A stretch of 64,000 nucleotides of DNA, from contig NZ_AP018818.1 of assembly GCF_024349785.1 (NCBI RefSeq), positions 857,501-921,500 of the forward strand. Direction: 5' to 3'. This DNA is from Sphingomonas bisphenolicum (GTDB taxonomy: Bacteria > Pseudomonadota > Alphaproteobacteria > Sphingomonadales > Sphingomonadaceae). This document shows positions 25,282 to 62,750 of this stretch, piece after piece. The position numbers were made by a program, and so were the translations under genes. Within the stretch, counting starts at the first letter, position 1. Each line of letters opens with the position of its first letter. Below the pieces are notes generated by a model. That model was not told the origin of the DNA and did not search any database. It worked only from the letters and a program-made list of their open reading frames with translations.

Positions 25282-25293
25282 GTTAGCGCTAAC
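25282..25293. promoter_or_regulatory. LacI-type operator GTTAGCGCTAAC (GH operon)
   Basis: A perfect 12-bp palindrome with the central CG typical of LacI-family sites, 48 bp before the start of the five-gene GH operon. Identical copies are at 30594 and 62739. It resembles the XylR/xyl-box palindromes known from Caulobacter and Xanthomonas. Binding by the LacI protein at 26521-27567 is inferred. Confidence 0.85.
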
Positions 25294-25327
25294 ATAATCC
25301 GCTATGAATGTTCGGCGCAAGCTGTGT

Positions 25328-26317
25328 TTATGTTTCCGGATCACTGGCCGTGACACCGGCCTCCGTTTGCACGACGGTCTTCATGGTGCCGTCCGACTCA
25401 TATTCCAGCCGCTCCACCGTCACGGCACGACGCCCGATCGCGCCACTCTGGTCGCCGATGGCGAGCGCTGCATTGTGCAGGAAAATATACCATTGTTTCT
25501 TGAACTCGGTGATGCCGGCGTGGATGGTGAAACTGTATTTGCCCGACCCGGTCAATTCCCCGCGATAGATCCAGGGGCCGCCGAGCGACGGTGCCGTAGC
25601 GTAGGAGATACGCTCGTCGCGATGGGTGGCGCGGTCGAGCGAGGCGTAGGTCAGATAATAGAGCTTGCCCCGCTTGTGCAGCCAGGGCCCTTCCTCGAAA
25701 TGCGGCGGTGTGATCTCGCGGATCGGCCCGTCGATCTCGATCATGTTGGGCTTGAGCTTCGCGATATAGCATTGGCGATTGCCCCAGGCGATCCACGTGA
25801 CGTCGTCATCGTCGGTAAAGACGGTTGGGTCGATATCCTCCCAACTATGCGTGCCCTTGGGCGTCATCTGGTTGGTGATGAGCGCCGATCCCTTAGCATC
25901 GACGAACGGGCCGGTGGGCTTGTCGGCAACCGCCACAGCGATCGCCTTGCCCGGATGCGTGCCGTCATGTTCGACTGCAGCGTAAAACCAGTATTTGTCA
26001 TTCTTCTTGATGGTCTGCGACGCCCAGGCGTCCTTCTTGGCCCATTTGAAGTCGGACACGTTCATGATCGGGCCATGGTCGGTCCAATGTCGCATGTCGG
26101 TGGTTGAATAGACGAGCCATTCGCGCATGTTGAACATTTCGTCCCGTTGCGCCTCGTCATGGCCGACATAGAGATAGAGACGGTTCCCATCGACCATCGG
26201 CGCAGGGTCCGCGGTGAACTTGTCTCGGATGATGGGATTGGTGCCGGGTGCGTCCTGCGACAGGGCTGGCGCCGCCATGGCGTTGAGGAGGAAAAAGGCA
26301 AGGAGCGAGCGGCGCAT
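25328..26317 (-). CDS. Single-domain GH43 glycosidase
   Basis: A 329-residue secreted GH43 propeller with a short signal peptide ending near ALSQ. Catalytic positions are in KFTADPAPMV (base), DIDPTVFTDDD (modulator) and FEEGPWLHKRGKLYYLTY (acid). It has no accessory domain, unlike the other three GH43 proteins here. It is divergent from the LacI gene across ~200 bp and has an AAGGA ribosome site. The same-strand GH operon begins 94 bp further on with its own operator. Members with this short form include exo-arabinanases, galactan-active enzymes and arabinofuranosidases, so substrate is open. Confidence 0.85.
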   Translation of the reverse strand: MRRSLLAFFLLNAMAAPALSQDAPGTNPIIRDKFTADPAPMVDGNRLYLYVGHDEAQRDEMFNMREWLVYSTTDMRHWTDHGPIMNVSDFKWAKKDAWASQTIKKNDKYWFYAAVEHDGTHPGKAIAVAVADKPTGPFVDAKGSALITNQMTPKGTHSWEDIDPTVFTDDDDVTWIAWGNRQCYIAKLKPNMIEIDGPIREITPPHFEEGPWLHKRGKLYYLTYASLDRATHRDERISYATAPSLGGPWIYRGELTGSGKYSFTIHAGITEFKKQWYIFLHNAALAIGDQSGAIGRRAVTVERLEYESDGTMKTVVQTEAGVTASDPET

Positions 26318-26520
26318 GAAGATGGTCCTTATGGATGGACGTCAGGAGAGGATGATGCGGTGCGCTTCCCCTTTAGGATTGGGTCCGCCTTGCTGTTTTC
26401 GCCGTCAGTTGGCTGTGATCGATGGGAGTGGCCTTGAAGGAAGGCCCGTATTTCCTGCTTTGCCGATGCCGGTCCATGTTTTAGGTCGGCTGATCGATTT
26501 GGGAGCGCGTAAGGAAAAAC

Positions 26521-27567
26521 ATGGCACGATCGCAGCAGGTGGGGCGTGGCGCGACCATAGTGGATGTTGCAAAGCGCGCCGGGGTTTCCTCGATGACCGT
26601 ATCGCGGGTCATCAATGGGCGATCGGGCGTCAGCGCGGAAACGCGCGCGGCTGTCGAGGACGCCATCAAGGCGCTTGCCTACACGCCCAATGTCGCGGCG
26701 CGCAATCTGGTGAATTCGACGGAATTGCGGATCGGCATCATCTATTCCAATGCGAGCGCCGCCTTCATGAGCGAGTTTTTGACGGGCGTCTTCGAGGAGG
26801 CGTCGTCGCGCGGCGCCAGACTGATGTTGCTGAAAGGAGAAGGCGGGCGCCCTCCGGCGGTCGAAGCCATTGAAGATCTGGTTGCATCCGGGCTGAGCGG
26901 CGCTTTGCTGGCCCCCCCGCTGGGGGAGGCGCCCGATGTGCTGCGCGTGCTGCGGGATGCAGGATGCGCTATGGCGGCGGTGGGGGCCTATCAGACGCCC
27001 GGTACGATCTGCGTTCGCATCGACGATCGCGCGGCGTCCTACCAGATGGCCCGGTTGCTGCTTGATCTGGGCCACCGGCAACTGGGTTTCATATTGGGCA
27101 ACCCCGACCAAGCGGCGAGCGCGGAACGGATGGCCGGATTCTATGCAGCGGTCCGTGAAACCGGTGGGGTGGAGGTCCATGTAGTTCAGGGCGACTTCAC
27201 CTATGCGTCGGGACTGGCCGCAGCCGAGCATCTGTTGACATTGCCCAGGCGGCCGACCGCCATTTTCGCAAGTAATGATGACATGGCCGCCGCGGTCGTT
27301 TCTGTAGCGCATCGGCGGCATCTGGACGTTCCGACCGAACTCGCTGTGGCAGGGTTCGACGATACCACCCTGGCAAGCACGCTGTGGCCCCCGTTGACTA
27401 CAGTCCATCAACCTGTGCGCGAACTCGCGGCCGAAGCGCTGAGCCTGTTGATCGCCGAAATCGCGGCGAAAAAGGGCAAATCGCGCGTCCCACGCGAAAC
27501 CATCCTCGATCACAGGATCGTCGAGCGTCAATCGACCGGCGCGCATATGTCGTCATTACCTTCATAG
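26521..27567 (+). CDS. LacI-family transcriptional regulator (XylR-like candidate)
   Basis: A 348-residue repressor. Residues 12-60 form the LacI HTH and hinge (TIVDVAKRAGVSSMTVSRVINGRSGVSAETRAAV, then YTPNVAARNL). The rest is a periplasmic-binding-protein-like effector domain (LRIGIIYSNASAAFMSEFL, IFASNDDMAAAVV, VAGFDDTTLASTLWPPLTTVHQP). The start has an AAGGA site. It sits in the middle of the glycan locus, divergent from one GH43 gene and convergent with another; its last 40 bp overlap that gene. It is the likely ligand of the GTTAGCGCTAAC sites. The inducer is unknown but probably a pentose, oligosaccharide or sugar acid. Confidence 0.93.
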   Translation: MARSQQVGRGATIVDVAKRAGVSSMTVSRVINGRSGVSAETRAAVEDAIKALAYTPNVAARNLVNSTELRIGIIYSNASAAFMSEFLTGVFEEASSRGARLMLLKGEGGRPPAVEAIEDLVASGLSGALLAPPLGEAPDVLRVLRDAGCAMAAVGAYQTPGTICVRIDDRAASYQMARLLLDLGHRQLGFILGNPDQAASAERMAGFYAAVRETGGVEVHVVQGDFTYASGLAAAEHLLTLPRRPTAIFASNDDMAAAVVSVAHRRHLDVPTELAVAGFDDTTLASTLWPPLTTVHQPVRELAAEALSLLIAEIAAKKGKSRVPRETILDHRIVERQSTGAHMSSLPS

Positions 27568-29162
27568 AGGAACCAGGCGAAATCGGCTGGGGTCGCCATG
27601 CCGGACAAATCCTGACAGGCCATGCCGACGAAGGTCCCGGTGAAATTGGGAAGGCCGGGACAAGTGACCTCATCCGAGAGGATCGTCGCATCGAGTTGTT
27701 GGGGCAGTATATGCCAGATTGATGCCCCTTCGCTGCGCCAACCGAAGATCAGCGCATCTCCGTCGACTTGTGCCCTCAGCTCGATCGATCCTTCCGGCAG
27801 CGGTCCGATCACCTCGATAGTAATGCCTTCCGCAAGGGCGGGCGATGCGATCATCAGCTGTAACTCGCGAATGTCCGCTTCCTTGCTGATGCTCAGATAG
27901 TAAAATTTCGTGCTGTTATAGTAGAGGATGAGGCCCGCTGCCTGCTGAAAGCAACAGGGCGAAAAGTCCACGCATGTCGTCGCGGTGAAGCGACCATGTT
28001 CCAGCCGGCGGGCGACAAGCGCCTGTTCGAAATGGCTGCCGACGGTTTCCCGGCCATGCAGTCTCAGGAAGCCGGGCCGTTCGGACAGGCTGAAAAGCCG
28101 CTCCGGCATGGGGGTGCGTAACCATTGAAATTCTGGGGGTAAATCCCCGCGATCAAAGCCGCCATCCCATCTGTTCTGGGGCCAGGGCATCGACGGCAGT
28201 TTGGGCGCCTCAGGGGCCTCCATCGGCTGTGCGCTGCCGTCCAGCGTTCGGAGCCATCCATCGTCATGCCATCGCATCGGCTGGATCGCCGTCTCGCGGC
28301 CAAGGATACATCGCTCTCGCTTCGGGATGGGCCGTCCGCACAGATAGGCGAGCCACGGCGTGCCATCCTTCAGTTCCACCAAGTCGCCATGGCCTGTGCG
28401 CGTAAGCGGCCCTTCGCGATTGCCGGCCGCTGTCAGTACCACGGCGTCGGGGTGAATCGCATATGGACCCAGCAGGTCGCGGGAACGGGCCATCACCACC
28501 GCATGATCCCAGCCGGTGCCGCCTTCCGCCACCAAAAGATGATACCATCCGTCGCGCTTGTAGATGTGGGGGCCTTCCGTGAAACCCAGATCGGTTCCTT
28601 CGAAAATCAGATGGGGCTGGCCAACGAGTTTCAGGGCGGCGCGATCCAGTTCCTGGATCTGGATGCCCGCGAAACGGCCGCGGCCGGGACGGTGATCCCA
28701 GAGCATGTTCAGCATCCAGCTTCGCCCGTCCTCGTCGTGAAACAAGGCGGGATCAAAACCGCTGCTGTTGAGGTGGACGGCGTCCGACCAGTCGCCGTCA
28801 ATCTGGTCGCAATAGACGACATAATTGGGGAAGTCGCGCAATGACGCGCCCTTCGCGCCGTTGACCGTGGTGACGCCGTACCGCTTCACATTGGTGAAGA
28901 TGAGCCAGAAGCGGCCATCGGCATAGCTGAGGTCGGGCGCCCAGACGCCGCAGGAATCGGGCACGCCGCGCATGTCCAGTTGTGACGCGCGCGCCAATGG
29001 GCGGCCGATCAGCCGCCAATGTTCCAGATCACGGCTATGGTGAATCTGCACGCCCGGATACCATTCGAAGGTCGATGTCGCGATGTAGAAATCATCGCCA
29101 ACCCGCAGGATCGATGGATCGGGATTAAAACCCGGAAGGATGGGATTTGAGATGATGTTCAT
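27528..29162 (-). CDS. GH43_11-like beta-xylosidase/alpha-L-arabinofuranosidase
   Basis: A 544-residue enzyme without a signal peptide, so probably cytoplasmic. It starts NPILPGFNPDPSILRVGDDFY with the GH43 base Asp at residue ~14, then GFDPALFHDEDGRSW (modulator) and FTEGPHIYKRDGWYHLL (acid). The ~200-residue C-terminal sandwich (FQWLRTPMP, LSERPGFLRLHG, AGLILYYNSTKFYYL) closes the active site in well-studied beta-xylosidases of this type. An open frame runs further upstream inside the MFS gene, but ATG 29162 overlaps the MFS stop (ATGA), fixing the start. It would cleave imported xylo- or arabino-oligosaccharides. Confidence 0.92.
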   Translation of the reverse strand: MNIISNPILPGFNPDPSILRVGDDFYIATSTFEWYPGVQIHHSRDLEHWRLIGRPLARASQLDMRGVPDSCGVWAPDLSYADGRFWLIFTNVKRYGVTTVNGAKGASLRDFPNYVVYCDQIDGDWSDAVHLNSSGFDPALFHDEDGRSWMLNMLWDHRPGRGRFAGIQIQELDRAALKLVGQPHLIFEGTDLGFTEGPHIYKRDGWYHLLVAEGGTGWDHAVVMARSRDLLGPYAIHPDAVVLTAAGNREGPLTRTGHGDLVELKDGTPWLAYLCGRPIPKRERCILGRETAIQPMRWHDDGWLRTLDGSAQPMEAPEAPKLPSMPWPQNRWDGGFDRGDLPPEFQWLRTPMPERLFSLSERPGFLRLHGRETVGSHFEQALVARRLEHGRFTATTCVDFSPCCFQQAAGLILYYNSTKFYYLSISKEADIRELQLMIASPALAEGITIEVIGPLPEGSIELRAQVDGDALIFGWRSEGASIWHILPQQLDATILSDEVTCPGLPNFTGTFVGMACQDLSGMATPADFAWFLYEGNDDICAPVD

Positions 29163-30403
29163 GCCGGTTTGCGTATCAACGTCCACAAGAGAATGGCGCC
29201 CAGCAGGTCCAGGAGGCCAAGGATGATGAAGAATGGGCCGTAGCCGACCTGGTCGACGGTCTGGCCCAGGAGGAGCGTGAAGACGAGAACGCCCAGATTG
29301 CCCGCCAGTCCGGCCAGACCTGCCGCGGTGGCCACCATGTTGCGCGGAAAGAGGTCCGACGCCATCGTGATGACGGTGACCGACAGCGTCTGATGCGCGA
29401 ACCCGCCCAGACAGAGCAACGCTATCGCGACATAAGGGTTCGTCGCCATGCCGACAAAGGCCATGCCGGTCATCATCACGGCGCCCAAAGTGAAGGTCCA
29501 GCGGCGGGCATCGATCAGGTCGACGTTGCGCCGTTGCAGGAAGGTGACGACGGCCGGACCGAACAGGCATCCAAGATCGGCCGCGAGAAAGGGTAGCCAG
29601 GCGAAGAGCGCGATCTGCGTCAGATCGAAACCGCGCACGCGGGCCAGATATAAGGGCATCCAGAAGGACAACATGCCCCATACCGGATCGGCGAGCATCC
29701 TGGGTAGGGCAATCCCCCAAAGGTCGCGTTGGCGCAGCAGCGACAGGATGGACGCGCGTGTCGCCTGCGGGGCGAGCCGGGCCTCCTGTCCACTGGCAAT
29801 ATAGTCGCGTTCCTGTGCGGTCAGTCGCGGGTGGTGGGCGGGGCTATTATAATAAAATAGCCAGAGTAATGCCCAGATCAGACCGATGGCCCCAGCAATG
29901 ACGAACGCCAGCCGCCAACTGTGCATCATGACGGCCCATGCTACCAATGGCGGCGCGAAAACGGCGCCGAAGGACGCGCCGATATTGTAGACGCCGCCGG
30001 CCAGCCCACGTTCCTTGGAGGGGAACCATTCGGCCACCAGCTTCTGGCCTGCGGGTTGCGCGGAACCCTCGGCCAATCCCAGCAAGCCGCGCAGGGCCGC
30101 AAATCCGAACCAGCCGTTGACGAAGCCATGCGCCATTGTGATGAGCGACCAGGCGGCGACGCAGACGCCAAAACCGATACGCAATCCTACGCTGTCGAGA
30201 AAATAGCCTGCCGCTGGCTGAAACATGACGCCGAGCTGAAACGCGCTCGTGATCCAGCCATATTCGACACTGTTTATCGACTGTTCCGTCAGAATGATCG
30301 GCGCCGCGACCCCCAGGACGGAACGCGAAAGATAGTTGATGACCATCGCGCCCACGAACAGGCCGATGATGGTCCATCTTATTTTTCCCATGCGCCCGGT
30401 CAT
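29159..30403 (-). CDS. MFS transporter, ACS/hexuronate-transporter-like
   Basis: An inner-membrane permease of ~414 residues with 12 predicted helices. Motifs of the anion:cation symporter (ExuT-like) group are seen: NYLSRSVLGVAAP in helix 1, RGLLGLAEGSAQPAGQKLVAEWFPSKERGLAGGVYNIGASFG, and a central loop near TAQERDYI. ATG 30403 and GTG 30412 are both possible starts. It is coupled by ATGA to the downstream cytoplasmic GH43, which suggests it imports the oligosaccharide or uronate-decorated sugar that this enzyme cuts. A degenerate LacI-type palindrome lies just upstream. Confidence 0.88.
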   Translation of the reverse strand: MTGRMGKIRWTIIGLFVGAMVINYLSRSVLGVAAPIILTEQSINSVEYGWITSAFQLGVMFQPAAGYFLDSVGLRIGFGVCVAAWSLITMAHGFVNGWFGFAALRGLLGLAEGSAQPAGQKLVAEWFPSKERGLAGGVYNIGASFGAVFAPPLVAWAVMMHSWRLAFVIAGAIGLIWALLWLFYYNSPAHHPRLTAQERDYIASGQEARLAPQATRASILSLLRQRDLWGIALPRMLADPVWGMLSFWMPLYLARVRGFDLTQIALFAWLPFLAADLGCLFGPAVVTFLQRRNVDLIDARRWTFTLGAVMMTGMAFVGMATNPYVAIALLCLGGFAHQTLSVTVITMASDLFPRNMVATAAGLAGLAGNLGVLVFTLLLGQTVDQVGYGPFFIILGLLDLLGAILLWTLIRKPA

Positions 30404-30417
30404 CGCAACCACCGCTT

Positions 30418-30429
30418 GATAACGTTAAC
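30418..30429. promoter_or_regulatory. Degenerate LacI-type operator (MFS-GH43 operon)
   Basis: GATAACGTTAAC, with central ACGT, differs from GTTAGCGCTAAC at three positions and sits immediately before the MFS start. Position and the shared ends suggest a weaker site for the same regulator. Confidence 0.5.
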
Positions 30430-30593
30430 ATAAATTATCGGGGACGGACGCCGTGGGCGTAACATCGCGGATTTCCTATGATCCGCGCGCTTGCGTGTAT
30501 GAAGTGACGCTAGTCGTTCCAACGCATGACATCCTCATCTTTTCAGTCTTGTCAGACTATTGACAACAATCCTGGAAGATATCAATAGACGTT

Positions 30594-30605
30594 GTTAGCG
30601 CTAAC
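30594..30605. promoter_or_regulatory. LacI-type operator GTTAGCGCTAAC (TonB receptor)
   Basis: A perfect copy of the 25282 palindrome, 93 bp before the TonB receptor start. A TTGACA hexamer at 30560-30565 could be the -35 box, which would put the operator over the transcription start. No strong -10 box could be fixed. Confidence 0.85.
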
Positions 30606-30698
30606 TAAATTTCTGTCGAGTCTTTGACATGGTCGGCAGAAGAGGTGCCGTTCCGGAGCTTGCTCCGCGACAGACAGAAAAATCCAGGGGAGAGCATT

Positions 30699-33644
30699 AT
30701 GTCACAATCCAGTTTTCGTGTCGTAAAATCCTGCATGGCGTCCGCCACGGTCAGCATGGCGGCCATGCTGGCCTCCATGGTCGCTGCGCCCGTCTTCGCG
30801 CAAAATGCAGTTGATGTCGCCGCGCCTCAAGACGCAGAGCGACGCGCCGCCGAGAGTGAGATCGTCGTCACCGGATCGCGTATCAAGACCAGCGGCTATA
30901 CCGCGCCCACGCCAACGACCGTGATCGATTCGGGCGCGATCGAAGCCAATGCGCAGCCCAATATCTTCACTACCATTGCGCAACTGCCTTCCTTGCAGGG
31001 GTCGAGCGGCACGTCAGTCAACACGTTCAGCACGTCGAGCGGGCAGCAGGGACTGAGTTCTTTCTCGCTGCGCGGCGTGGGCGCGATCCGTACCCTGACG
31101 TTGCTGGATGGCCAGCGTGTCGTCGGCGCGAATGTGACCGGCGTTCCCGACATCAGCCTGTTCCCGCAACTTCTCGTCCAGAGGGTCGATGTGGTGAATG
31201 GCGGCGCGTCCGCATCCTATGGATCGGACGCGGTCGGCGGCGTCGTCAATTTCATTACCGACACCCGGTTCAAGGGCGTCAAGGGCAATGTCCAGGGCGG
31301 CATCAGCCGATATAGCGACAATGAGCAGTTCCTGATCCAGTTGGCGGCCGGCACCAGCTTTCTCGACGATCGCGCGCATCTGGTCGTCAGTGGCGAATAT
31401 GCCGATGAAAAGGGCGTAGGCGGCGGCGATTTCGGTATCGGCCTCGCCGGTGGGCGCGACTGGTTCAAGCAGACCAGCCTGATCGACCGCGGTGTCGTGA
31501 ACGACGGATCGCCGCGCTACGTGCTGCGCGATTATGCCCAGGCCATCAATTATGCCAAATATGGCTTGATCACGGCTGGCCCGCTTCAAGGCACGGCCTT
31601 CGACCAGAATGGCAATCCATTTCAATTCAATTATGGTTCAAACGGCGTGCCGACGCGCGGCAGCTCGAATGTCGTTGACGGCTGCTTCCCCGGCTTCTGT
31701 CTTGGCGGCGACCTGTCGGGCAATGTCGATGCGGGTCGGACGCTTCAGTCGGCGATCAAGCGTATCAACAGCTATGCGCGTCTGGGCTTCGACTTCGCCG
31801 ACAATGACGAACTTTATTTCACCTTCAATTTCGGTCAGGTGAAAACGCATAACACGCCGGTTGGCGGGATGAACAAGCCGGGCCTGACCATCCAGTGCGC
31901 CAATCCGTTCGTGCCCGATTCGATCAAGGCGGCGTGCGCGACCGCGGGCATCAGCAACTTCAGTTACGGCACCAGCAATGCTGCGTTGGGCAATACCCGC
32001 GTGGATACGGATCGTCGGCAGTATCGCGGCGTAATCGGCGCCAAGGGCGCGTTCGACCTGCTGGGGACCGAATGGTCCTACGATAATTATTTCGAGCATG
32101 GCGTGAATTTCACCGCCATCGACGTGTCCAATATCCTGCTGACCAATCGTTTCAACGACGCCATCAACGCGACCACGTTGAACGGATCGATCGTGTGCGC
32201 CAGCGCCACCGCGCGGGCGAACGGATGCCAGCCGCTCAACATCTTCGGCGGGAATCCGTCGGCCGGGGCGCTTGCCTATATTATGCCGGAAAACGGCCCG
32301 TTTCAGCGGACGCGCCAGACGCAGGACGTGGTCAGCATAAACTTCTCGGGTTCGCCCGTCGATCTGTGGGCCGGTCCGCTCTCGATCGCATTCGGCGGCG
32401 AATATCGGCATGAATTCTACCGCGTACGCGCCGACGCCTATGGCATGGGTTCGAATTTCGTCCCCAACACCGCGGACTATCCGTTCGACCCCACGCTGCT
32501 GCCGGGCGGCAATAATTGGTATGCCGGCAACTATAAGAGCGGTGGTGGCGCTTATGGCGTGAAAGAAGCCTTCTTCGAGGCCGACTTGCCGATCATCAAC
32601 AGCGATGCGCTGGGCAAGGCGAACATCAATGGTGCGGTGCGCGTGACCGACTACAGCACGTCCGGCACTATCTGGGCGTGGAAGGTTGGTGGCACCTGGA
32701 ACCTGCCGGTCGACGGATTCCGCCTGCGCGGCGTGACGTCGAAGGACGTGCGCGCGCCAAACCTGTCGGAATTGTTTGCGGCGCCCGTCACCACGACGCT
32801 GCCCAACTTCTTCGATCCGTTCACCGGCCGAAATGTGCTGGCGATCCAGAACAGTATCGGCAACGCCAATTTACGTCCCGAAACTGCGCGCAATACGACG
32901 GCGGGCATCGCCTTTTCCGGCGCATCCTGGCTGCCGGGTTTCAGCGCATCGTTCGATTACTACAAGATCAAGATCAAGGATGTCATTTCCAGCCTGGGCG
33001 CGGGCGACATCGTCAATTTATGTTTCCAGAATGTCCGGCCCGAAACCTGTGGCGCGTTCAACCTGAACAACCAGCAGGGGCCGAACTTCATCAACGTGCA
33101 GGCGTTCAACCTGGCTTCGATCGATACGAGCGGCTTCGATATCGAGGCCAGCTATCAGTGGCAGCGGCCGCTGGGCCTGCCGGGCAGCCTGACCTTGCGT
33201 GGCTTGGCGACCCATGTCCGCAAATTCGTGACGGACTCCGGCCTGATCGGCACGATCCCGGTGGATTCGGCCGGCGTCAACACCGGCAATACGCCCGACT
33301 GGAAATTCCTGGCCATACAGAGCTACGAGAATGACAAATTTTCGTTCATGATCCAGGAACGCTGGTTCAGTTCGGGTGTGCTGGGGCATCAATATGTGGT
33401 CTGCGAGCCAGGTAGCTGCCCTGCCTCCACCAACAATGCGCCGACCATCGACCAGAACTATATGCCGGGCGCCTTTTACATGGACATCGGCGGCACCTAC
33501 AATCTCACACCGCAGGTTACCGCCTATTTCAAGGTCGATAATCTGTTTGATCGCGATCCGGCAAAATCACCGTTCTTCGTCAATCCGGCGCTCTATGACG
33601 TGATCGGCAGGATGTACCGCGCAGGCGTGCGCTTCCGTTTCTGA
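30699..33644 (+). CDS. TonB-dependent receptor of the glycan locus
   Basis: A 981-residue outer-membrane receptor. The signal (KSCMASATVSMAAMLASMVAAPVFAQ) is followed by a TonB-box-like segment (SEIVVTGSRI), the plug domain (FSLRGVGAIRTLTLLDGQRV, DVVNGGASASYGSDAVGGVVNFIT) and a 22-strand barrel ending VRFRF with terminal Phe. ATG 30699 has a GGGGAGAG ribosome site; an upstream in-frame start at 30624 lacks one. The LacI-type operator upstream ties it to the GH genes. It probably imports plant oligosaccharides across the outer membrane. No SusD partner is present, as usual for sphingomonads. Confidence 0.93.
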   Translation: MSQSSFRVVKSCMASATVSMAAMLASMVAAPVFAQNAVDVAAPQDAERRAAESEIVVTGSRIKTSGYTAPTPTTVIDSGAIEANAQPNIFTTIAQLPSLQGSSGTSVNTFSTSSGQQGLSSFSLRGVGAIRTLTLLDGQRVVGANVTGVPDISLFPQLLVQRVDVVNGGASASYGSDAVGGVVNFITDTRFKGVKGNVQGGISRYSDNEQFLIQLAAGTSFLDDRAHLVVSGEYADEKGVGGGDFGIGLAGGRDWFKQTSLIDRGVVNDGSPRYVLRDYAQAINYAKYGLITAGPLQGTAFDQNGNPFQFNYGSNGVPTRGSSNVVDGCFPGFCLGGDLSGNVDAGRTLQSAIKRINSYARLGFDFADNDELYFTFNFGQVKTHNTPVGGMNKPGLTIQCANPFVPDSIKAACATAGISNFSYGTSNAALGNTRVDTDRRQYRGVIGAKGAFDLLGTEWSYDNYFEHGVNFTAIDVSNILLTNRFNDAINATTLNGSIVCASATARANGCQPLNIFGGNPSAGALAYIMPENGPFQRTRQTQDVVSINFSGSPVDLWAGPLSIAFGGEYRHEFYRVRADAYGMGSNFVPNTADYPFDPTLLPGGNNWYAGNYKSGGGAYGVKEAFFEADLPIINSDALGKANINGAVRVTDYSTSGTIWAWKVGGTWNLPVDGFRLRGVTSKDVRAPNLSELFAAPVTTTLPNFFDPFTGRNVLAIQNSIGNANLRPETARNTTAGIAFSGASWLPGFSASFDYYKIKIKDVISSLGAGDIVNLCFQNVRPETCGAFNLNNQQGPNFINVQAFNLASIDTSGFDIEASYQWQRPLGLPGSLTLRGLATHVRKFVTDSGLIGTIPVDSAGVNTGNTPDWKFLAIQSYENDKFSFMIQERWFSSGVLGHQYVVCEPGSCPASTNNAPTIDQNYMPGAFYMDIGGTYNLTPQVTAYFKVDNLFDRDPAKSPFFVNPALYDVIGRMYRAGVRFRF

Positions 33645-33651
33645 TCGTCAC

Positions 33652-33686: not shown

Positions 33687-33715
33687 AATCATATGAGACT
33701 GGGAAGAGGGTGTTC

Positions 33716-35169
33716 ATGAGACGAACCGCCTTCATGGCTGCGATGGTGGCCATGTTCCATCCGTCCGCATTGCAGGCGTCCTCTCCCCCTTCTTCCGTTG
33801 CATCCGCGTCCAAGCAGCGGCTTGTCATATTGAGCGATATCGAGGCCGACCCGGACGATACACAGTCTTTCGTTCGGCTATTTCTCTACGCCAACCAGAT
33901 CGATCTGGAAGGCCTGGTCGCGACGACGTCCGTTCATATGAAGCAGGCGGTCCATGCGGATTCGATCCGAAGCGTCATCGATGCCTATGGCAAGGTGCAG
34001 CCCAATTTGAACCTGCACGAACCGGGCTATCCCAGCGCTGGGCGCTTGCACGCCCTAGTGCGCGAAGGACAGCCGGCTTATGGGATGGCGGCGGTAGGCG
34101 AAGGGCGGGACACGGCAGGATCGCGCCTGATCGTGCAGGCGATCGAGAAAGACGATCCACGGCCGCTTTGGATTTCGGTCTGGGGCGGGGGAACAGTTTG
34201 GCACAAGCGCTTTACAGCTTGCGCGCCACGAGGTCCGCTGAGGATGTGGCGCGGCTTGTGAGCCGCCTGCGCGTCTATACGATTTCCGATCAGGACGACA
34301 GTGGCGCATGGATACGCCGGAACTTCCCCGCGCTTTTCTACATCGTCAGTCCCGGCGGCTATGGCGCCGGGACGTGGACTGGCATCCATAGCCGGATCGA
34401 AGGCATCGACAACAGCGTCATCGGCAACGACTGGTTACGGGACAATATCCAGCAAGGGCACGGCCCGCTGGGCGCGGCCTATCCCGATGTTTCCTATGGG
34501 ATGGAAGGGGATACGCCGGCTTATCTGTCCTTACTGCCCAATGGACTGAGCGATCCGGACCACCCGGACTGGGGCGGCTGGGGAGGGCGGTATGAATTCT
34601 ACGTGCCCGCCGCCGCGGCGACCGACCCCAATGGCTTTACAGGTGGGGTGCCGATCGAACAGGAGACACGGCCGATCTGGACCAACGCGACCGATGCCGT
34701 GGCGCCGTTGACCCGTAACGCGACCGGGCGCGCGGTTGCGCCCGCCGAACGGTCGATCAGGGATTTTCGCGCCACGCTCTGGCGCTGGCGAACGGATTTT
34801 CAGAACGACTTCGCCGCGCGGATGGACTGGGCGATCAAGGCCTATAAGGACGCCAATCATCCACCGAAGGTCCAACTCGCGCATCCCGACCGGATGACGG
34901 TGAAGGCCGGACAGCGTTTCTTCCTGAGCGGTCTGGGCACGACAGACCCTGACGGGGACAGCCTGAGCTATTATTGGCTCCATTATCCCGAAGTGGGTGG
35001 CTGGGCGTCGGCGATTCCGTCGGGGATCGCGCCGAATATCGTGACGGTCGATTTTACCGCTCCGATGGTCAAGGAGCGACGCGAGGCGCATTTCATCTTG
35101 TCGGTCACAGATAAGGGAACGCCGCCTGTTACCCGGTACCGACGCGTGATTGTGACGATCGAACCCTGA
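33716..35169 (+). pseudogene. DUF1593 / Sde182-like nucleoside-hydrolase-fold protein, frameshifted
   Basis: A secreted protein of the DUF1593 (cellulose-binding Sde182-like) family. After a signal peptide, the nucleoside-hydrolase-like Asp motif appears as LSDIEADPDDTQSFVRL. The first frame ends at 34261. The match continues in another frame (NSLAQALYSLRATRSAEDVARL, then YTISDQDDSGAWIR and FYIVSPGG) to 35169, with a C-terminal Ig-like domain (TDPDGDSLSYYWLHYPE). The break is at the G5 tract near 34187-34191; one more G would restore one frame of ~485 residues. ATG 33716 has a GGAAGAGGG ribosome site. It is either a real null allele or a sequencing error. Confidence 0.8.
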
Positions 35170-46824: not shown

Positions 46825-48287
46825 CCGCACCGACAACCCCGATCCCTGTCCATCTGCATATCGGCGACCGTAGATTAGCGCAGGCATCTGGCGGCACGCA
46901 CGATCATATCTATCCCGCGGACGGATCGACCACGAGCCGCATCCCGCTGGCGGGCGCCGCCGAAGCGCAGGAGGCGGTTGAGGCTGCGTCAGAGGCGTTC
47001 AAGAGCTGGCGCCGGTCCAAGCCCATCGAGCGGCGCCAGATGCTGCAGCGTCTGGCGCAACTGATACGCGATAATGACGCGGAGTTCGGACGGCTGGGGG
47101 CGCTGGACAACGGTACGCCTGCAACCTTTGCGGCGGGCGGGGCGCATATCGCCGCTGAATGGATCGACTATTATGCCGGTTGGGCGGACCGGATCGAAAG
47201 CCGGGTCAACAGCACGGTGATGGCCGACGGCGAACTGGGCTACACGCTGGCCGAACCCTATGGCGTGATCGGCGTCATCATCACCTGGAACGGTCCGCTG
47301 ATCTCGCTGGGCATGAAAGTCGCGCCGGCGATCGCGGCGGGCAATACGGTGGTGGTGAAGCCGTCCGAGATGACGCCCTATTCTGGCGAGCTGTTCATGA
47401 AGCTGGCGGCGGAGGCGGGCATTCCGGCTGGCGTCATCAACATGATCCCCGGATCGATCGAGGCGGGCGACGCGCTGGTGCGGCATCCTCTGGTCGAGAA
47501 GGTGAGCTTCACCGGCGGGCCAGTGACGGCGCGCAAGATATTGGCGGCCTGCGCCGAACAGATGAAACCCGCGGTGCTGGAACTGGGCGGAAAGTCGGCC
47601 AATATCATCTTCCCCGATGCCGATCTGGATGCAGCCTGCACCTTCGGCGTGTTCAATTCGATCGGCATGATGAGCGGCCAGGGGTGCGCCTTCCCCACGC
47701 GGCTGCTGGTTCATACGGACATTTACGACCAGGTCGTCGAGCGGGTGTTGGCGATCGCCGCCCACATCAAGGTCGGCGATCCCTTCGACGCTGTCACGAC
47801 GTCAGGCCCGGTGATCAACGAGGCCGGCATGAACCGCATCCTGGCGATGATCGAAACCGCGAAGGCACGGGGTGCGGGGACATTGCTGATGGGTGGAAAC
47901 CGGATCGGCGGTGCACTGGCCAGCGGCTATTTCATCGAGCCGACCATATTCGGAGAGGTCGATCCGGATTCGGAACTGGCGCAGAAGGAATTGTTCGGCC
48001 CGGTACTGGCGATCAGTCGCTTTCGTGACGAGGCCGAGGCGATCCGCATCGCCAACGCCACCCGTTACGGCCTGTCCGCCTATGCCGAAACGCGCGATCT
48101 CGGCATTGCGATGCGGCTGGCGGAAGAGCTGAAGAGCGGCTGCGTGCTGATTAACCAGTCCCGTAACATCCAGCCCAAGCGACCGTTCGGCGGACTGCTC
48201 GACAGCGGCTATGGGCGCGAGGGCGGCAAGGAGGGGCTGGACGAGTTCCTGCGGGTCAAGACCGTCGGCATCGGGCTGCCGCGGTGA
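46821..48287 (+). CDS. Aldehyde dehydrogenase (NAD(P)+)
   Basis: A 488-residue ALDH superfamily enzyme. Conserved parts: PYGVIGVIITWNGP and VVVKPSEMTP in the cofactor domain, FTGGPVTARKI, LELGGKSANIIFPDAD with the catalytic Glu, GQGCAFPTRLLV with the catalytic Cys, KELFGPVLAISRF and PFGGLLDSGYGREGG. GTG start at 46821 overlaps the SDR stop by 4 nt, with GGAGAG upstream. It likely oxidises an aldehyde made by a neighbouring dehydrogenase or oxygenase. Substrate unknown. Confidence 0.94.
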   Translation: MTAPTTPIPVHLHIGDRRLAQASGGTHDHIYPADGSTTSRIPLAGAAEAQEAVEAASEAFKSWRRSKPIERRQMLQRLAQLIRDNDAEFGRLGALDNGTPATFAAGGAHIAAEWIDYYAGWADRIESRVNSTVMADGELGYTLAEPYGVIGVIITWNGPLISLGMKVAPAIAAGNTVVVKPSEMTPYSGELFMKLAAEAGIPAGVINMIPGSIEAGDALVRHPLVEKVSFTGGPVTARKILAACAEQMKPAVLELGGKSANIIFPDADLDAACTFGVFNSIGMMSGQGCAFPTRLLVHTDIYDQVVERVLAIAAHIKVGDPFDAVTTSGPVINEAGMNRILAMIETAKARGAGTLLMGGNRIGGALASGYFIEPTIFGEVDPDSELAQKELFGPVLAISRFRDEAEAIRIANATRYGLSAYAETRDLGIAMRLAEELKSGCVLINQSRNIQPKRPFGGLLDSGYGREGGKEGLDEFLRVKTVGIGLPR

Positions 48288-50698
48288 ACGCGGCTGTCGT
48301 GCCATCGCCGGAACGCCGCGGCTTTCGCGCGCGCCCTTATCTGTTCGCCCTGTTGCTGCTGGCGCTGGGCATCGTGCTGGCCTGGGGTGGATCGTCGCTC
48401 GTGCGGCTGGGCGGATCGCCCTATTATCTGCTGGCGGGCCTGACCGTCATCGCCAGTGCTGTACTGGTGGGGACGGGACGTCACGCGGGGGCCAAAGTCT
48501 ATGGCGTGATGCTGGCGGCGACACTGGCCTGGTCGATCTGGGAGTCGGGCTTCGACGGCTGGGCGCTGACCGCGCGGCTCGCCGCGCCGACGGTGCTGGG
48601 CCTGTGGTTCCTCATGCCCTGGACCCGGCGCAAGCTGGCGGGCGACGCGCCCTGGTCCTGGCCGACGCGGATCGGCATAGGAGTGGCCGCCCTGCTGCTG
48701 GGCGCGGCGCTCAACGCTGCGTTCGGCACCCGGCCGGTCGATCCTCTATTCCAGACCGGCATGGCGCCGGTCCCGGTCGCGACGATGGCGGCGGTCCCCG
48801 CGCAGCAGCAGGTCGGCGACTGGGCAAGCTATGGCAATGACGCGGGGGGCACCCGCTTCTCGCCATTGGCGCAGATCACGCCTGCCAATGTCGGCGACCT
48901 TCAGCCGGCCTGGACCTACCGCTTCGGTCCGGCGCCGGCCGGCGCACCCCGGTCGTTGCAGGTGACGCCGATCAAGGTCGGCGACACGCTCTACGCCTGC
49001 ACCAGCTATAACGACATCGTGGCGCTGGACGCGGAGACCGGGCATCAGCGCTGGCGCTATCGCGCGCGCACCGACGTCAGTGGCGCCCCTCATGGTGCGT
49101 GCCGGGGGGTATCTTATTATCCCGTGCCCGGAGCGACCGGCGCCTGTGCCGCGCGCATCTTCACCAACACGATCGACGCGCGCCTGATTGCGGTGGATGC
49201 AGCGACCGGCAAGCCTTGCCAGGATTTCGGCCACAACGGAATCGTGTCCCTGCAGGAGGGCATGCCCAAGTCGCCCAAGGGCTATTATTATGTCAGCTCC
49301 GCGCCAACCATCGCGCGCGGCCGCATCGTGCTGGGCGGATGGGTGTTCGACAATATGTATTGGGGCGAGCCGTCCGGCGTGATCCGCGCCTTCGACGCCG
49401 TCACCGGCAGGCTGAGCTGGGCGTTCGACATCGGACGGCCTGACCGCAAGGGCGCGCCGCCGCCGGGGGAAACCTATACCCCGTCCACCCCCAATAGCTG
49501 GGCGCCGATGAGCGTGGACGACAAGCTGGGCCTGATCTACGCGCCCTTGGGCGGGGCAGTGCTGGACTATGCCGGCCACGCCCGCCGCCCGTTCGACGAC
49601 GCCTGGTCGGGTTCCGTCGTCGCGCTGGACGCGGAAACCGGAACCCCGCGCTGGAAGTTCCAGACCGTCCATCACGACCTGTGGGACTATGACGTCGCGT
49701 CGCAGCCGACGCTGGTGGACCTGCCGATGCCGGGTGGCGTCCGCCATGCCTTGATCCAGCCAACCAAGCGGGGCGAGATGTTCGTGCTGGACCGGGAGAC
49801 GGGCAAGCCACTCTATCCCGTGACAGAACATGCTGCGCCAACGCGCGGCGCGGTGCCGGGGGAGCGCCCATCGCCCAGCCAGCCCTATTCGGATGCGATG
49901 CCGTCCTTCCGGGGGCCATTGCTCACCGAGCAGTCCATGTGGGGCGTGACGCCCTTGGATCAGCTCTGGTGCCGTATCGCCTTTCGCGAGGCGCGCTATG
50001 ACGGGCCGCTGACGCCGCCCGGCTTCACACCCAATATCGTATCGCCCGGTTTCCTGGGCGGGTCGGACTGGGGCAGCGTGTCGATCGACGCCGACCGCCA
50101 TCTGATGATCGTCAATTCCAATCGCATGGCAAATTACATCAAACTCATCGCGCGTGCGACCGCCGACAAGATGGGCATCGCCCCTGCCGACCTGACGAAG
50201 ACGACAAGCGGGGAGGGGGCGGGCTATGCCGCGCTCAAAGGCACGCCGGTCGCGGTGAAGATCTATCCCTTCCTCTCGCCCATCTTCGCGCCCTGCCAGG
50301 CTCCGCCCTGGGGCAATATCAGCGCGGTCGATCTGGTCACGGGCAAGCTGGTGTGGACGCACAGGCTGGGCACAGCGCGTGACAGTGGTCCGCTCGGCCT
50401 TTCATCCATGCTGCCCTTCCGTATCGGTGTGCCCAATATGGGCGGCGCGGTGACGACGCGCGGGGGTCTGTTCTTCCTCGCCGCGACCCAGGACCGCTAT
50501 CTGCGCGCTTTCGACACCGCGACCGGCGAGGTGCTGTGGCGCTCGCGCCTGCCAGCCGGCGGCCAGTCGACACCGATGACCTATTTGTCGCCCGGCGGGC
50601 GACAGATGGTGGCCGTCGCGGCCGGCGGCCATCCCATGATGAACACCAGGGCCGGCGACTATCTGATCGCTTATGCCTTACCTGCAAAAGCCAAATGA
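48284..50698 (+). CDS. Membrane-bound PQQ-dependent dehydrogenase (glucose/quinate DH type)
   Basis: An 804-residue quinoprotein. Residues ~20-150 have about five hydrophobic helices, the membrane anchor of mGDH/QuiA-type enzymes. The rest is an eight-bladed PQQ propeller in the periplasm: GDWASYGNDAGGTRFSPLAQI, ALDAETGHQRWRYR, QTVHHDLWDYDVASQPTL with conserved His-His/Asp, GGSDWGSVSIDADRHLMIVNSN, CQAPPWGNISAVDLVTGKLVW. Electrons would go to ubiquinone. GTG 48284 overlaps the ALDH stop (GTGA). No PQQ biosynthesis genes are in the window. Glucose, quinate/shikimate or another cyclic polyol or alcohol may be the substrate. Confidence 0.92.
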   Translation: MNAAVVPSPERRGFRARPYLFALLLLALGIVLAWGGSSLVRLGGSPYYLLAGLTVIASAVLVGTGRHAGAKVYGVMLAATLAWSIWESGFDGWALTARLAAPTVLGLWFLMPWTRRKLAGDAPWSWPTRIGIGVAALLLGAALNAAFGTRPVDPLFQTGMAPVPVATMAAVPAQQQVGDWASYGNDAGGTRFSPLAQITPANVGDLQPAWTYRFGPAPAGAPRSLQVTPIKVGDTLYACTSYNDIVALDAETGHQRWRYRARTDVSGAPHGACRGVSYYPVPGATGACAARIFTNTIDARLIAVDAATGKPCQDFGHNGIVSLQEGMPKSPKGYYYVSSAPTIARGRIVLGGWVFDNMYWGEPSGVIRAFDAVTGRLSWAFDIGRPDRKGAPPPGETYTPSTPNSWAPMSVDDKLGLIYAPLGGAVLDYAGHARRPFDDAWSGSVVALDAETGTPRWKFQTVHHDLWDYDVASQPTLVDLPMPGGVRHALIQPTKRGEMFVLDRETGKPLYPVTEHAAPTRGAVPGERPSPSQPYSDAMPSFRGPLLTEQSMWGVTPLDQLWCRIAFREARYDGPLTPPGFTPNIVSPGFLGGSDWGSVSIDADRHLMIVNSNRMANYIKLIARATADKMGIAPADLTKTTSGEGAGYAALKGTPVAVKIYPFLSPIFAPCQAPPWGNISAVDLVTGKLVWTHRLGTARDSGPLGLSSMLPFRIGVPNMGGAVTTRGGLFFLAATQDRYLRAFDTATGEVLWRSRLPAGGQSTPMTYLSPGGRQMVAVAAGGHPMMNTRAGDYLIAYALPAKAK

Positions 50699-58857: not shown

Positions 58858-58869
58858 ATTTGGTTTAAG

Positions 58870-60098
<1,229 letters not shown>

Positions 60099-60124
60099 AT
60101 CGGCTCCACTTACTCAGAAGTTGG

Positions 60125-60151
60125 AGCCTCCGGCAAACCCGGTACGGTTCA
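60125..60151 (-). repeat. IS3 terminal inverted repeat (right)
   Basis: Exact inverse of 58831-58857, directly followed by the ATA target duplication. Confidence 0.95.
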
Positions 60152-60235
60152 ATACCCCATCACATACTGGCACCAAACGCCCAGCGTCATGCGTTTTCAA
60201 TGCGCGACGACGCCGGTCTGGCATGCTGCCTGCGG

Positions 60236-61243
60236 CTATAAAAGCGCGATGATCGCAACACTATCCGATGATGTCATGAACAGGCTTTTGCCATTGGCGC
60301 CAAAGCAACAATTGGCGACCGCCTTGCCGGTGCCTACGATGCCCAGCAATACCCCGTCCGGTGTCAATATATGCACGCCGCCCGGACCGGTCGCAAAGAC
60401 ATGGCCATCGGGCGCCACCTTGATCCCATCGGGCAAGCCCGGCAGACCCTGGGCGCGCTGGCTTCTCATGTCGTGAAACAGGCGCTGATCGATAAGGCGT
60501 CCTTTGGCGTCCAGCGTGTAGGCGCGTACCTCCGGCCGCTTTTCGTCGGATAAGGCCAGATACAGGGTGCGGCCGTCCGGCGACAGCGCCACGCCGTTGG
60601 GACGGCGGTGATTGCCATCCAGCAGGGCCACGTCACCATCCGGCGTCAGCGCATAGAGGCCATTATGGTCGATTTCGCGCAGCGATGACGCATCGCCATC
60701 CGCAAAACCATAAGGCGGATCGGTGAAATAGATGGTGCCCGATGGCGCGATGCACAGATCGTTGGGGCTGTTGAAGCGCCTGGAATGAAATCGATCGGCC
60801 AGGATGGTGCGCTTGGTCGTTTGCAGGTCGATCCGTACGATCGCGCGCGTGCCGCTGTCGGCGGCGATCAGTTGACCCGTCTTGTCGATGGCCAGGCCGT
60901 TGAGACCGGCTTCGCGAATGCCGGGAGGCACAGCGGTTTGCAATCCGGCGGGGGAGAGGAAAGGCTGCGCGCCCAGTCCGGCACGCCAGCGATAGACGAT
61001 ATTGGCGGGCGGATCGCTGAACAGCAGATAGTCGCCCTGTGGCACCCACACAGGCCCTTCGGCCCAGCGAAAGCCGTGAGCCAATATCTCGATCGAAGCG
61101 GATGGCGCGATGATCCGATCCAGCGCCGCGGACAGGCGCGTGACGCTGCCCATGGTCGCCGATCCGGCAACAGATTTTCCCACTGCGATCGCAGCGAGCG
61201 GCATGGCAGCCAGCGACGCCAGCACGGTCCGGCGCGCGATCAA
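60236..61243 (-). CDS. SMP-30/gluconolactonase-family lactonase
   Basis: A 335-residue exported six-bladed propeller. It likely starts at TTG 61243, which overlaps the Gfo/Idh stop (TTGA), with AGGA upstream; a Tat-like signal follows (ARRTVLASLAAM). The SMP-30 metal ligands appear as GFRWAEGPVW (Glu), RFNSPNDLCI (Asn) and HRRPNGVALSPDGRTLY (Asn/Asp). It would hydrolyse a sugar lactone. Translational coupling to the oxidoreductase suggests the two act in sequence in the periplasm. The start is less certain than the body. Confidence 0.88.
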   Translation of the reverse strand: MIARRTVLASLAAMPLAAIAVGKSVAGSATMGSVTRLSAALDRIIAPSASIEILAHGFRWAEGPVWVPQGDYLLFSDPPANIVYRWRAGLGAQPFLSPAGLQTAVPPGIREAGLNGLAIDKTGQLIAADSGTRAIVRIDLQTTKRTILADRFHSRRFNSPNDLCIAPSGTIYFTDPPYGFADGDASSLREIDHNGLYALTPDGDVALLDGNHRRPNGVALSPDGRTLYLALSDEKRPEVRAYTLDAKGRLIDQRLFHDMRSQRAQGLPGLPDGIKVAPDGHVFATGPGGVHILTPDGVLLGIVGTGKAVANCCFGANGKSLFMTSSDSVAIIALL

Positions 61244-62343
61244 GCGCCAATCCTGACGCTGCGGCCCTGCGCCGCGGATTGATAGATCGCCTCGATCACG
61301 CGCAGGTCGGCCAGACCTTCTTCGCCCGGCACGATTGGCGTCTTGCCCGTCAGGATGCATTCGGCGAAATGATCGAGTTGCCCCGCAAATTGCGTTTTGC
61401 CGGCCGGGGGCAGGGTGCGCGGCGCGGTGACGCCATCCTTGCGGATCGTCATGCTTTGGCCCGCATAGGGCGTCGCCGGCTCCATCCCGATCCAGCCCTG
61501 GGTTCCGTTGATGCGATAGCTGTTATGCCCGCTGCTGTAACTGGAAATACAGTCCGCTACGATGCCGGACGGAAAGCGCAGCAGGAAGCTGATCCGATCC
61601 TCCACAGTGCGGAAACGCGGGTCGGACCGGTCAGTGGATTCGACTGCGCTCACTTCAACCGGTTCCTCGCCCGTCAGGTAACGCGCGGCGTTCAGGCTGT
61701 AGATGCCGATGTCCATCATCGATCCGCCGCCGGACAAAGGCTTGTCGAGCCGCCATTGGTCCGGCTTGATCGGAAAGCCATGTTCCGCCGTGATCAGACG
61801 AGTGGGGCCGACATGCCCGCTGCGCGCCAGATCGATGGCCAGGCGGTTATAGGGTTCGAACCGCGATCGATAGCCGATCATCAACTTCTTCCCCGCCTGG
61901 CGACAGGCCGCGATCATCGCCTGACAATCGGCCACGGATGTCGCCATCGGCTTTTCGCACATCACATGCTTGCCAGCCTTCGCGGCGCGAATGGCATATT
62001 CGGCGTGCAGGCTGTTGGGCAATATGATGTAGACGGCGTCGATATCGGGATTATCGCGGATGCGATCGAAATCGGCATAGCTGTAGCGATGCGTCTTGGG
62101 GACGCCATATTGATCGCCAAAGTTCTCCAGCTTGGCAGGCGTGCCGCTGACCAGCGCTGCAATATGGGCGTGCTCGCATCCGGCGAAATTCGGCATGATC
62201 TGGCGTGTGGCATAGGAACCAAGCCCGACGATCGCATAGCCGATCTTGCGCGCCGACGCCGCCGACACGCCGCTGCCGACGGAGGCCAGCATCAATCCGG
62301 CGCCCAAACCGCCGATAATGTCACGCCGCGAACCGGTCGCCAT
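61240..62343 (-). CDS. Gfo/Idh/MocA-family oxidoreductase with Tat signal
   Basis: A 367-residue exported NAD(P)-binding oxidoreductase resembling periplasmic glucose-fructose oxidoreductase. The Tat signal is GSRRDIIGGLGAGLML. The Rossmann fold starts YAIVGLGSYATRQIMPNF, the catalytic Lys motif is HVMCEKPMATS, and the C-terminal sheet domain includes GGGSMMDIGIYSLNAARYLTGEEP, typical of GFOR-like enzymes. Downstream coupling with an SMP-30 lactonase suggests sugar oxidation to a lactone and then to an aldonate. It follows the LuxR-type gene by 33 bp in one operon. Confidence 0.9.
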   Translation of the reverse strand: MATGSRRDIIGGLGAGLMLASVGSGVSAASARKIGYAIVGLGSYATRQIMPNFAGCEHAHIAALVSGTPAKLENFGDQYGVPKTHRYSYADFDRIRDNPDIDAVYIILPNSLHAEYAIRAAKAGKHVMCEKPMATSVADCQAMIAACRQAGKKLMIGYRSRFEPYNRLAIDLARSGHVGPTRLITAEHGFPIKPDQWRLDKPLSGGGSMMDIGIYSLNAARYLTGEEPVEVSAVESTDRSDPRFRTVEDRISFLLRFPSGIVADCISSYSSGHNSYRINGTQGWIGMEPATPYAGQSMTIRKDGVTAPRTLPPAGKTQFAGQLDHFAECILTGKTPIVPGEEGLADLRVIEAIYQSAAQGRSVRIGA

Positions 62344-62376
62344 ATCCGCCTCCCAATATCCTGTGGCTTTGCGCTT

Positions 62377-62670
62377 TCAGTCGGCCGGCCAACCAGGCGC
62401 AGCGCGAAGCCAGCCCAGATTGCGCGCGGCGATCGCGGCTTGTGTGCGGTTGCGCACATTGAGTTTGCGCATCAACGCCGTCATGTGCACCTTCACCGTT
62501 GCTTCCGCCATGCCCAGTTCATAGGCGATCTGCTTGTTCAACAGGCCCGAATGGACGCAGCGCAGGACTTTCATCTGGGTGGGGGTCAGCGCCGGCGGCT
62601 CGTGGGGTCTTGCAGGCTGTCGGAAGTCCCGCTGATCGGAACTATTGTGCAGGTCCAGCGCAATGAACAT
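62377..62670 (-). CDS. Stand-alone LuxR-type HTH regulator
   Basis: A 97-residue protein consisting of little more than a LuxR/GerE HTH (residues ~28-90: LTPTQMKVLRCVHSGLLNKQIAYELGMAEATVKVHMTALMRKLNVRNRTQAAI). It has no receiver or ligand-binding domain. The start has GGGAGAGGA just upstream, so this is probably the true start and not a truncation. It leads the Gfo/Idh-lactonase operon and shares the upstream region, with its GTTAGCGCTAAC operator, with the GntP permease gene. Confidence 0.88.
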   Translation of the reverse strand: MFIALDLHNSSDQRDFRQPARPHEPPALTPTQMKVLRCVHSGLLNKQIAYELGMAEATVKVHMTALMRKLNVRNRTQAAIAARNLGWLRAAPGWPAD

Positions 62671-62738
62671 CCGTCCTCTCCCTGTTCGATCCGATTCGAA
62701 TCAGCCAGCCTGTTTGGCCTGCCAGCTTGGTGAATGTC

Positions 62739-62750
62739 GTTAGCGCTAAC
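62739..62750. promoter_or_regulatory. LacI-type operator GTTAGCGCTAAC (LuxR/GntP divergent region)
   Basis: A third perfect copy of the palindrome at 25282 and 30594. It lies 69 bp before the LuxR-type gene and within the region upstream of the divergent GntP gene. It links this sugar-acid module to the glycan locus more than 30 kb away. Confidence 0.82.

Follow-up and report, generated by a model that had tools for sequence, protein, structure and literature searches.

Genes and sites of the region

The stretch of Sphingomonas bisphenolicum DNA analysed here (the window, 64,000 nucleotides of contig NZ_AP018818.1, numbered from its first letter; positions outside it carry a contig prefix such as C1 or C2) contains two separate groups of sugar genes, a glycan locus and a module of sugar-oxidation and sugar-acid genes, and in both groups a 12-base palindrome, GTTAGCGCTAAC, lies in front of the genes. 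The original prediction was that this palindrome is an operator of a LacI-type repressor encoded in the glycan locus, and that it joins hydrolysis, import and oxidative sugar metabolism in one regulon. The features on which the argument depends are the following; GH denotes a glycoside hydrolase family.

15393–25276, minus strand: GH operon, GH43, GH43, GH95, GH27 and GH127 (Pfam)
25282–25293: operator 1, GTTAGCGCTAAC, before the GH43-GH43-GH95-GH27-GH127 operon (exact word, relatives, alignment)
25328–26317, minus strand: GH43-family gene between operator 1 and the LacI gene (Pfam and relatives)
26521–27567, plus strand: LacI-family repressor with recognition residues S-M-T-V-S-R (Pfam, structure matches, tree)
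27528–30412, minus strand: MFS transporter (29159–30412) and GH43 enzyme (27528 to about 29231, start by eye)
30418–30429: operator 2, degenerate, GATAACGTTAAC, three mismatches, before the MFS-GH43 genes (conservation, alignment)
30560–30588, plus strand: putative TonB-receptor promoter, TTGACA, 17 bases, CAATAG, found by eye; the operator starts 5 bases beyond it
30594–30605: operator 3, GTTAGCGCTAAC, before the TonB receptor (conservation, alignment)
30624–33644, plus strand: TonB-dependent receptor, likely ATG at 30699
37296–60231: 22.9 kb that separate the two blocks; an IS3-type insertion sequence (58870–60098) lies at the right edge
60236–61360, minus strand: SMP-30/gluconolactonase-family protein, whose start overlaps the Gfo gene and is unsettled
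61240–62343, minus strand: Gfo/Idh oxidoreductase, closest to the Caulobacter aldose-aldose oxidoreductase
62377–62670, minus strand: LuxR/GerE-type protein, 97 amino acids
62739–62750: operator 4, GTTAGCGCTAAC, between the LuxR-Gfo-lactonase genes (minus) and GntP (plus) (conservation, alignment)
62878–64000, plus strand: GntP permease, start by eye, extending past the window to C2:921829

The gene content observed agrees with the identities that had been proposed for the LacI, LuxR, Gfo/Idh, lactonase, GntP and insertion-sequence genes. The local LacI protein contains both domains expected of its family (the helix-turn-helix PF00356, E 5.2e-19, and the periplasmic-binding-protein-like PF13377, E 7.8e-33), and its best sequence matches among structures are CcpA and PurR. 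The Gfo protein matches first the Caulobacter structure 5a02 (E 2.6e-149) and then the Zymomonas enzyme GFOR (1ofg, E 1.5e-103), and its N-terminus is twin-arginine-like, the export signal being judged by eye only. An FCD/GntR regulator gene adjoins GntP. Lactone formation, lactone hydrolysis and import by GntP would fit the use of sugar acids.

Copies of the operator word

The three listed copies of GTTAGCGCTAAC are the only exact ones in the window and also in the whole genome (5,209,012 bases in 6 contigs), so that all of them fall inside 37.5 kb; the same 12-mer read backwards, which serves as a control, occurs once genome-wide. All three are intergenic, as had been noted. With start codons read by eye, operator 1 is separated by about 48 nt from the probable ATG (25234) of the GH43 operon, operator 3 lies 94 nt from the ATG of the TonB receptor, operator 4 lies 69 nt from the LuxR start (62670) and 128 nt from the likely GntP ATG, and operator 2 may sit nearer to its gene start, at about 15–27 nt.

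Counts that tolerate mismatches are to be read with more caution. Five sites with at most two mismatches are observed in the window, compared with 1.37 (sd 1.14) in shuffled sequence. A scan of the genome with the strict pattern GNTARCGYTANC returns 10 sites, six in this region, three around the gene for a xylan-type LacI on C1, and one (C2:330567) at the 5' end of a GH2 gene of uncertain start; the reversed pattern returns 92, and the ratios are similar in five relatives (chosen from the 18 genomes, described below, that have the sugar-acid module and no local LacI). Given this control, no claim is made for numerical enrichment of the degenerate motif. Mismatch-tolerant counts alone are unimpressive; the strength of the observation derives from the exactness, clustering, position and conservation of the sites.

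The sites that differ from the 12-mer by one base are C1:2774181, which is surrounded by YspA/SLOG-type genes, and C2:944864, beyond the window end, where GTTAGCGCTATC is flanked by a pair of TonB receptor and tryptophan-halogenase-like genes on one side and by SapC/cupin genes on the other. Also beyond the window end, GATAGCGCTATC occurs at C2:937542, upstream of GH43-GH3-esterase genes. Both of these C2 sites are kept in the relatives coded G033 and G013; in G019 the C2:937542-type site is identical and the C2:944864-type site differs by one base. The site at C2:937542 has a partner, GGTAGCGCAAAC, 100 bp away, and the pair is also present in G033, G013, G015 and G082.

Conservation across Sphingobium

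The comparison set consists of 94 genomes of the genus (Sphingobium), which are referred to by G-numbers. They hold 33 exact copies of GTTAGCGCTAAC, distributed over 22 genomes, and by their coordinates 27 of these copies fall at two orthologous places, 13 at the glycan locus of the local LacI and 14 at the GntP/LuxR divergon. The remaining six occur singly in G067, G094, G095, G108, G033 and G114; in G094 and G095 the copy is 4.3 kb from a paralogous LacI. The copy in G033 (C5:2482152; L072:10152) is upstream of a gene of the response regulator/GerE type, with no sugar gene seen nearby.

The sites also stand out as conserved islands in their intergenic regions. Between the MFS and TonB-receptor genes (8 genomes), operator 3 ranks 2nd and operator 2 ranks 17th of 267, and before LuxR, operator 4 ranks 7th of 219 when 24 of the 30 module loci are ranked (L147, L155, L157, L164, L167 and L168 left out). 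The accompanying alignments comprise 7 genomes at MFS/TonB and 27 of the 30 module loci (L147, L155 and L157 left out). The proposed degenerate copy before MFS-GH43 is upheld by the relatives, since a GNTARCGYTANC site is kept at the MFS promoter in seven of the eight other genomes with the local LacI (G033, G013, G015, G031, G019, G004 and G025); none was found at that promoter in the eighth, G012. At the module, 30 loci were read of 35 Gfo matches, and in 29 of them LuxR or Gfo is preceded by a site with at most two mismatches; the remaining locus, that of G076, stops at a contig edge. The other five Gfo matches (G019, G085, G114, G005 and G025; 75–77% identity) lack any site beside Gfo and have neither a LuxR nor a GntP match there.

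That a short palindrome should have recurred in this way by chance is scarcely credible. Such a reading could appeal to the fact that the motif with mismatches is no commoner than its controls, but the exact copies are clustered, intergenic and conserved at orthologous promoters. Because the genome's exact copies fall within 37.5 kb, because 27 of the 33 in the genus occupy the same two places, and because the sites form conserved islands, the comparison of genomes contradicts a chance origin and confirms the sites as real control sites of a familiar kind.

Gene order and linkage of the two halves

An unrelated 20-kb stretch and an insertion sequence had been described as lying between the two halves. 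Both are present, the stretch measuring 22.9 kb and holding no strict operator in the strict scan. In G033 and G013 the module, together with pectin and esterase genes, runs directly into NaH-(GH127)-GH27-GH95-GH43-LacI as one contiguous island, with junction gaps of about 50 (G033) and 14 (G013) bases; GH127 is missing from the G013 map. The corresponding blocks of S. bisphenolicum, 13983–37295 and 60232 to about 28 kb beyond the window end, are in the opposite order to that of G033 and G013. Gene order thus indicates that the intervening stretch reflects rearrangement. In other arrangements, Gfo lies about 9 kb (G012) or 6 kb (G101) from a local-type LacI gene. Linkage that outlasts rearrangement supports a shared function of the module and the glycan locus.

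Some further features of the region may be recorded here. The intervening stretch contains oxidative genes of its own, an aldehyde dehydrogenase followed by a PQQ-type dehydrogenase (46821–50698). At 33710–35169 a Sde182-like (nucleoside-hydrolase-like) gene is broken across two frames, the cause being either a true frameshift or an error of sequencing close to a run rich in G; in G033, G108 and G015 it is one open frame of 472–490 codons. The TonB-receptor orthologue of G033 (L069, 12702–15123) is interrupted by about 2.4 kb. On the minus strand at 6079–12381 there is an open frame of 2100 codons with no Pfam match at E 1e-5.

The probable regulator of the glycan-locus sites

The genome encodes 11 LacI-type helix-turn-helix proteins. 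In a tree of 94 sequences (which includes S. cyanobacteriorum twice) the local LacI falls in a distinct clade (48 of 48 sequences, support 1.0). One comparison is with G025, G005 and G085, whose orthologue of the local LacI is 64–65% identical. At the MFS and TonB promoters of these genomes there are 6 strict sites, and all carry the core TAACGTTA, and in G025 and G005 the recognition helix of the orthologue has A-M in place of S-M, while the 16-base sites of the xylan-type LacI, TTGATAGCGCTACCAA and ATGGTAACGCTATCAG, are the same as in S. bisphenolicum. This observed co-divergence of site and regulator, with the xylan-type sites unchanged, makes the local LacI the best-supported owner of the glycan sites, and it is accordingly the favoured candidate for operators 1–3.

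In the wider family, a site within a fetched LacI stretch need not belong to the LacI encoded there. A strict site is present at 25 of the 40 public-genome LacI loci with at least 57% identity, and at the 18 loci outside Sphingobium whose LacI has a P-M helix, 24 of 25 strict sites have the TAACGTTA core. The 40 paralogue loci (at most 51% identity) have the cores TAGCGCTA or TAACGCTA, plus one TAACGTTA. G111 (62% identity) is mixed, with two TAAC-type sites and one GATAGCGTTAAC.

Putative promoters and proposed mechanism

The placement of the sites, as read from the alignments, is that expected of a repressor. TTGACA occurs 33–34 bases upstream of the operator at six of the seven aligned TonB loci, and TTGAA occurs 27–28 bases upstream of it at all 27 aligned LuxR-Gfo loci; if the spacer is about 17 bases long, the operator would cover the end of the -10 element or the transcription start, the classic position for repression. 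Each operator probably overlaps a promoter. The operator is an even palindrome with a central CG, a hallmark of the LacI family by the criteria given in the available part of PMC4052901. The GH43 gene that separates operator 1 from LacI was not found in G013 and G078; there the site stands about 190 bp upstream of LacI and might control both flanking genes.

The binding, repression, promoter positions and inducer that we infer are as follows. The word GTTAGCGCTAAC would serve as operator in a regulon that is devoted to a complex plant glycan and governed by a LacI-family repressor. In the absence of inducer, a LacI dimer would cover the transcription start of the GH operon, of MFS-GH43, of the TonB receptor and of the divergent LuxR-Gfo-lactonase/GntP genes, blocking initiation, and a sugar or oligosaccharide freed from the glycan would release it. 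The local LacI would own the sites of the glycan locus and, in S. bisphenolicum, most likely binds the GntP/LuxR site too, a site that it probably shares with a paralogous LacI or that such a paralogue used first. Taken as a whole, this glycan LacI regulon with its likely GntP/LuxR site is the best explanation of the data, and we judge it reasonably probable.

Ownership of the GntP/LuxR site

The assignment of operator 4 is a tentative part of this explanation. Among the 30 module genomes, 12 have a local-type LacI at 78% identity or more, and 18 lack an orthologue at 61% or more. Presence of the local LacI (at least 78%) predicts presence of the module (12 of 14 genomes compared with 18 of 80; Fisher p 1e-5, from counts tallied by hand and with kinship ignored).

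Several results count against the proposed regulon, at this site or more generally. The GntP/LuxR operator is equally conserved in the 18 module genomes without the local LacI. A paralogous LacI group, 45–50% identical and represented in S. bisphenolicum by the xylan-type LacI, also predicts the module (29 of 60 genomes compared with 1 of 34; Fisher p 1.2e-6, a hand tally that again ignores kinship and includes G005, whose match is just under the main cut-off). Of 40 loci of this paralogue group, 4 contain the exact 12-mer, each from a different genus outside Sphingobium: in Croceibacterium (L287) the word precedes the LacI match by 84 bp, in Asticcacaulis it comes about 110 bp after it, and in an Erythrobacter and a Sphingomonas it is 4–6 kb away. 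Fifteen of the 40 orthologous or near-orthologous public loci have no strict site, including all 5 whose LacI has an R-M helix. A scan with a consensus promoter reported other promoter-like matches and not the promoters found by eye, and the local LacI gene of S. bisphenolicum has no strict site immediately before it, so that autoregulation is not visible. Finally, near matches do not stand out in number: with at most one mismatch there are 5 genome-wide, compared with 17 for the reversed word.

One alternative is an arrangement of two regulons, in which the local LacI controls the glycan locus only and the GntP/LuxR operator belongs to the xylan-type paralogue (C1:2134946), which has nearly the same operator. 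Of the 30 module genomes, 29 have a member of the paralogue group, and the one without it is 60% complete. The paralogue's locus in S. bisphenolicum contains GH67, UxaC, a mannitol-dehydrogenase-like enzyme, a lactonase and a TonB receptor, gene content from which both loci would be expected to feed related metabolism; the exact copies in the four other genera point the same way. The paralogue's own sites in S. bisphenolicum, G025, G005 and G085 are, however, GATAGCGCTACC or GGTAACGCTATC and never the T/T form of the module site, and it is the local LacI, not the paralogue, that is repeatedly found linked to the module. We consider this arrangement unlikely, if still worth serious attention.

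Quite improbable, in our view, is ownership of the GntP/LuxR site by another LacI, such as an orphan with an I-K helix (C1:1198081), in a role comparable to that of Caulobacter GluR, for which control of gnl-gfo is predicted in the consulted part of PMC4052901. The I-K LacI is present in S. bisphenolicum and in all five inspected module genomes without the local LacI (taken from the 18), and in G059 it lies 135 bp from an exact 12-mer. Against this, its neighbours, for example argininosuccinate synthase, provide no link to sugar acids, and a search for conserved palindromes near the I-K, K-K, P-M and M-M LacI genes gave no usable operator. A LacI of the I-R type (C2:308453–309607) was rejected as a general owner of the module: it is found in 24 of the 94 genomes and is missing from many module genomes. 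In G016, G018, G022 and G030 an I-R-type LacI has a GTTAGCGCTATC site just upstream of its own gene.

The site might also be read by a local regulator outside the LacI family, either the LuxR-type protein or the FCD/GntR regulator encoded next to GntP. Both genes adjoin the site region, and all 8 fetched exact-site loci without the local LacI have LuxR and GntP around the site. This is nevertheless very unlikely, since G101 has a near-identical site before Gfo with no LuxR or GntP matches, the same word stands at promoters that have no LuxR or FCD/GntR gene, and the form of the palindrome is LacI-like.

For the proposed regulon as originally predicted, the outcome is divided. An operator common to the promoters of hydrolysis, import and oxidation genes, and halves that are contiguous in two relatives, stand in its favour; sole control of GntP/LuxR by the local LacI is put in doubt by the 18 genomes that keep the site without it. 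Across the genus the site does not depend on the local LacI, several sister repressors are candidates for its owner, and one operator word may be read by two or three LacI paralogues. A possible, though doubtful, history is capture of the module through converging operators, in which the Sphingobium S-M clade moved to the TAGCGCTA core already used by the xylan-type LacI and the Gfo-GntP module; the glycan LacI would thereby have gained the module, and sugar-acid metabolism would today be under the joint control of two paralogous repressors that recognise a common operator.

Comparison with known systems

The system appears to be a real conserved LacI regulon of a known type. In the full-text literature (most subscription papers being outside the search) there was no match for the 12-mer and no description of this Sphingomonas/Sphingobium LacI glycan regulon, which is thus previously undescribed in the literature searched. 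It offers a testable conserved Sphingobium regulon that would tie the hydrolysis of plant glycans, and TonB-dependent uptake, to the oxidation of sugars and the import of sugar acids. The sharing of an operator between paralogous repressors is the interesting residue: the S-M, A-M and P-M recognition residues, set against the TAGCGCTA and TAACGTTA cores, form a natural series in which to study how such repressors keep, lose and share operators.

The suggested likeness to the XylR/xyl-box palindromes of Caulobacter and Xanthomonas holds for the latter. The Xanthomonas xyl-box is TGGTAGCGCTAACA in the available portions of PMC10380989 and PMC7748154, so that the inner 12 bases differ by one, and as described there XylR too is a LacI-family repressor acting on plant cell-wall sugar genes. 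The targets here are GH43/GH95/GH27/GH127, a TonB receptor and the Gfo-GntP module, not xylose genes. Nor is the local regulator itself a xylan-type LacI: it falls outside that clade (in a tree that contains no Xanthomonas XylR), and the xylan-type locus is on C1.

Two Caulobacter systems resemble the module. GluR is a LacI-family regulator whose predicted regulon includes gnl-gfo, and the likeness lies in LacI control of a lactonase paired with a glucose-fructose-oxidoreductase-type enzyme, but in the part of PMC4052901 consulted GluR is credited with a 20-bp palindromic site and with control of the central glycolytic genes. The aldose-aldose oxidoreductase CC1225 (PDB 5a02) is described, in the portion of PMC4628093 available, as having a periplasmic signal and as lying in a putative operon with the gluconolactonase CC1224. 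The S. bisphenolicum Gfo shares with it the similarity to 5a02 and the lactonase alongside, and differs in that it is divergent from a GntP permease and is preceded by a LuxR-type gene and the operator.

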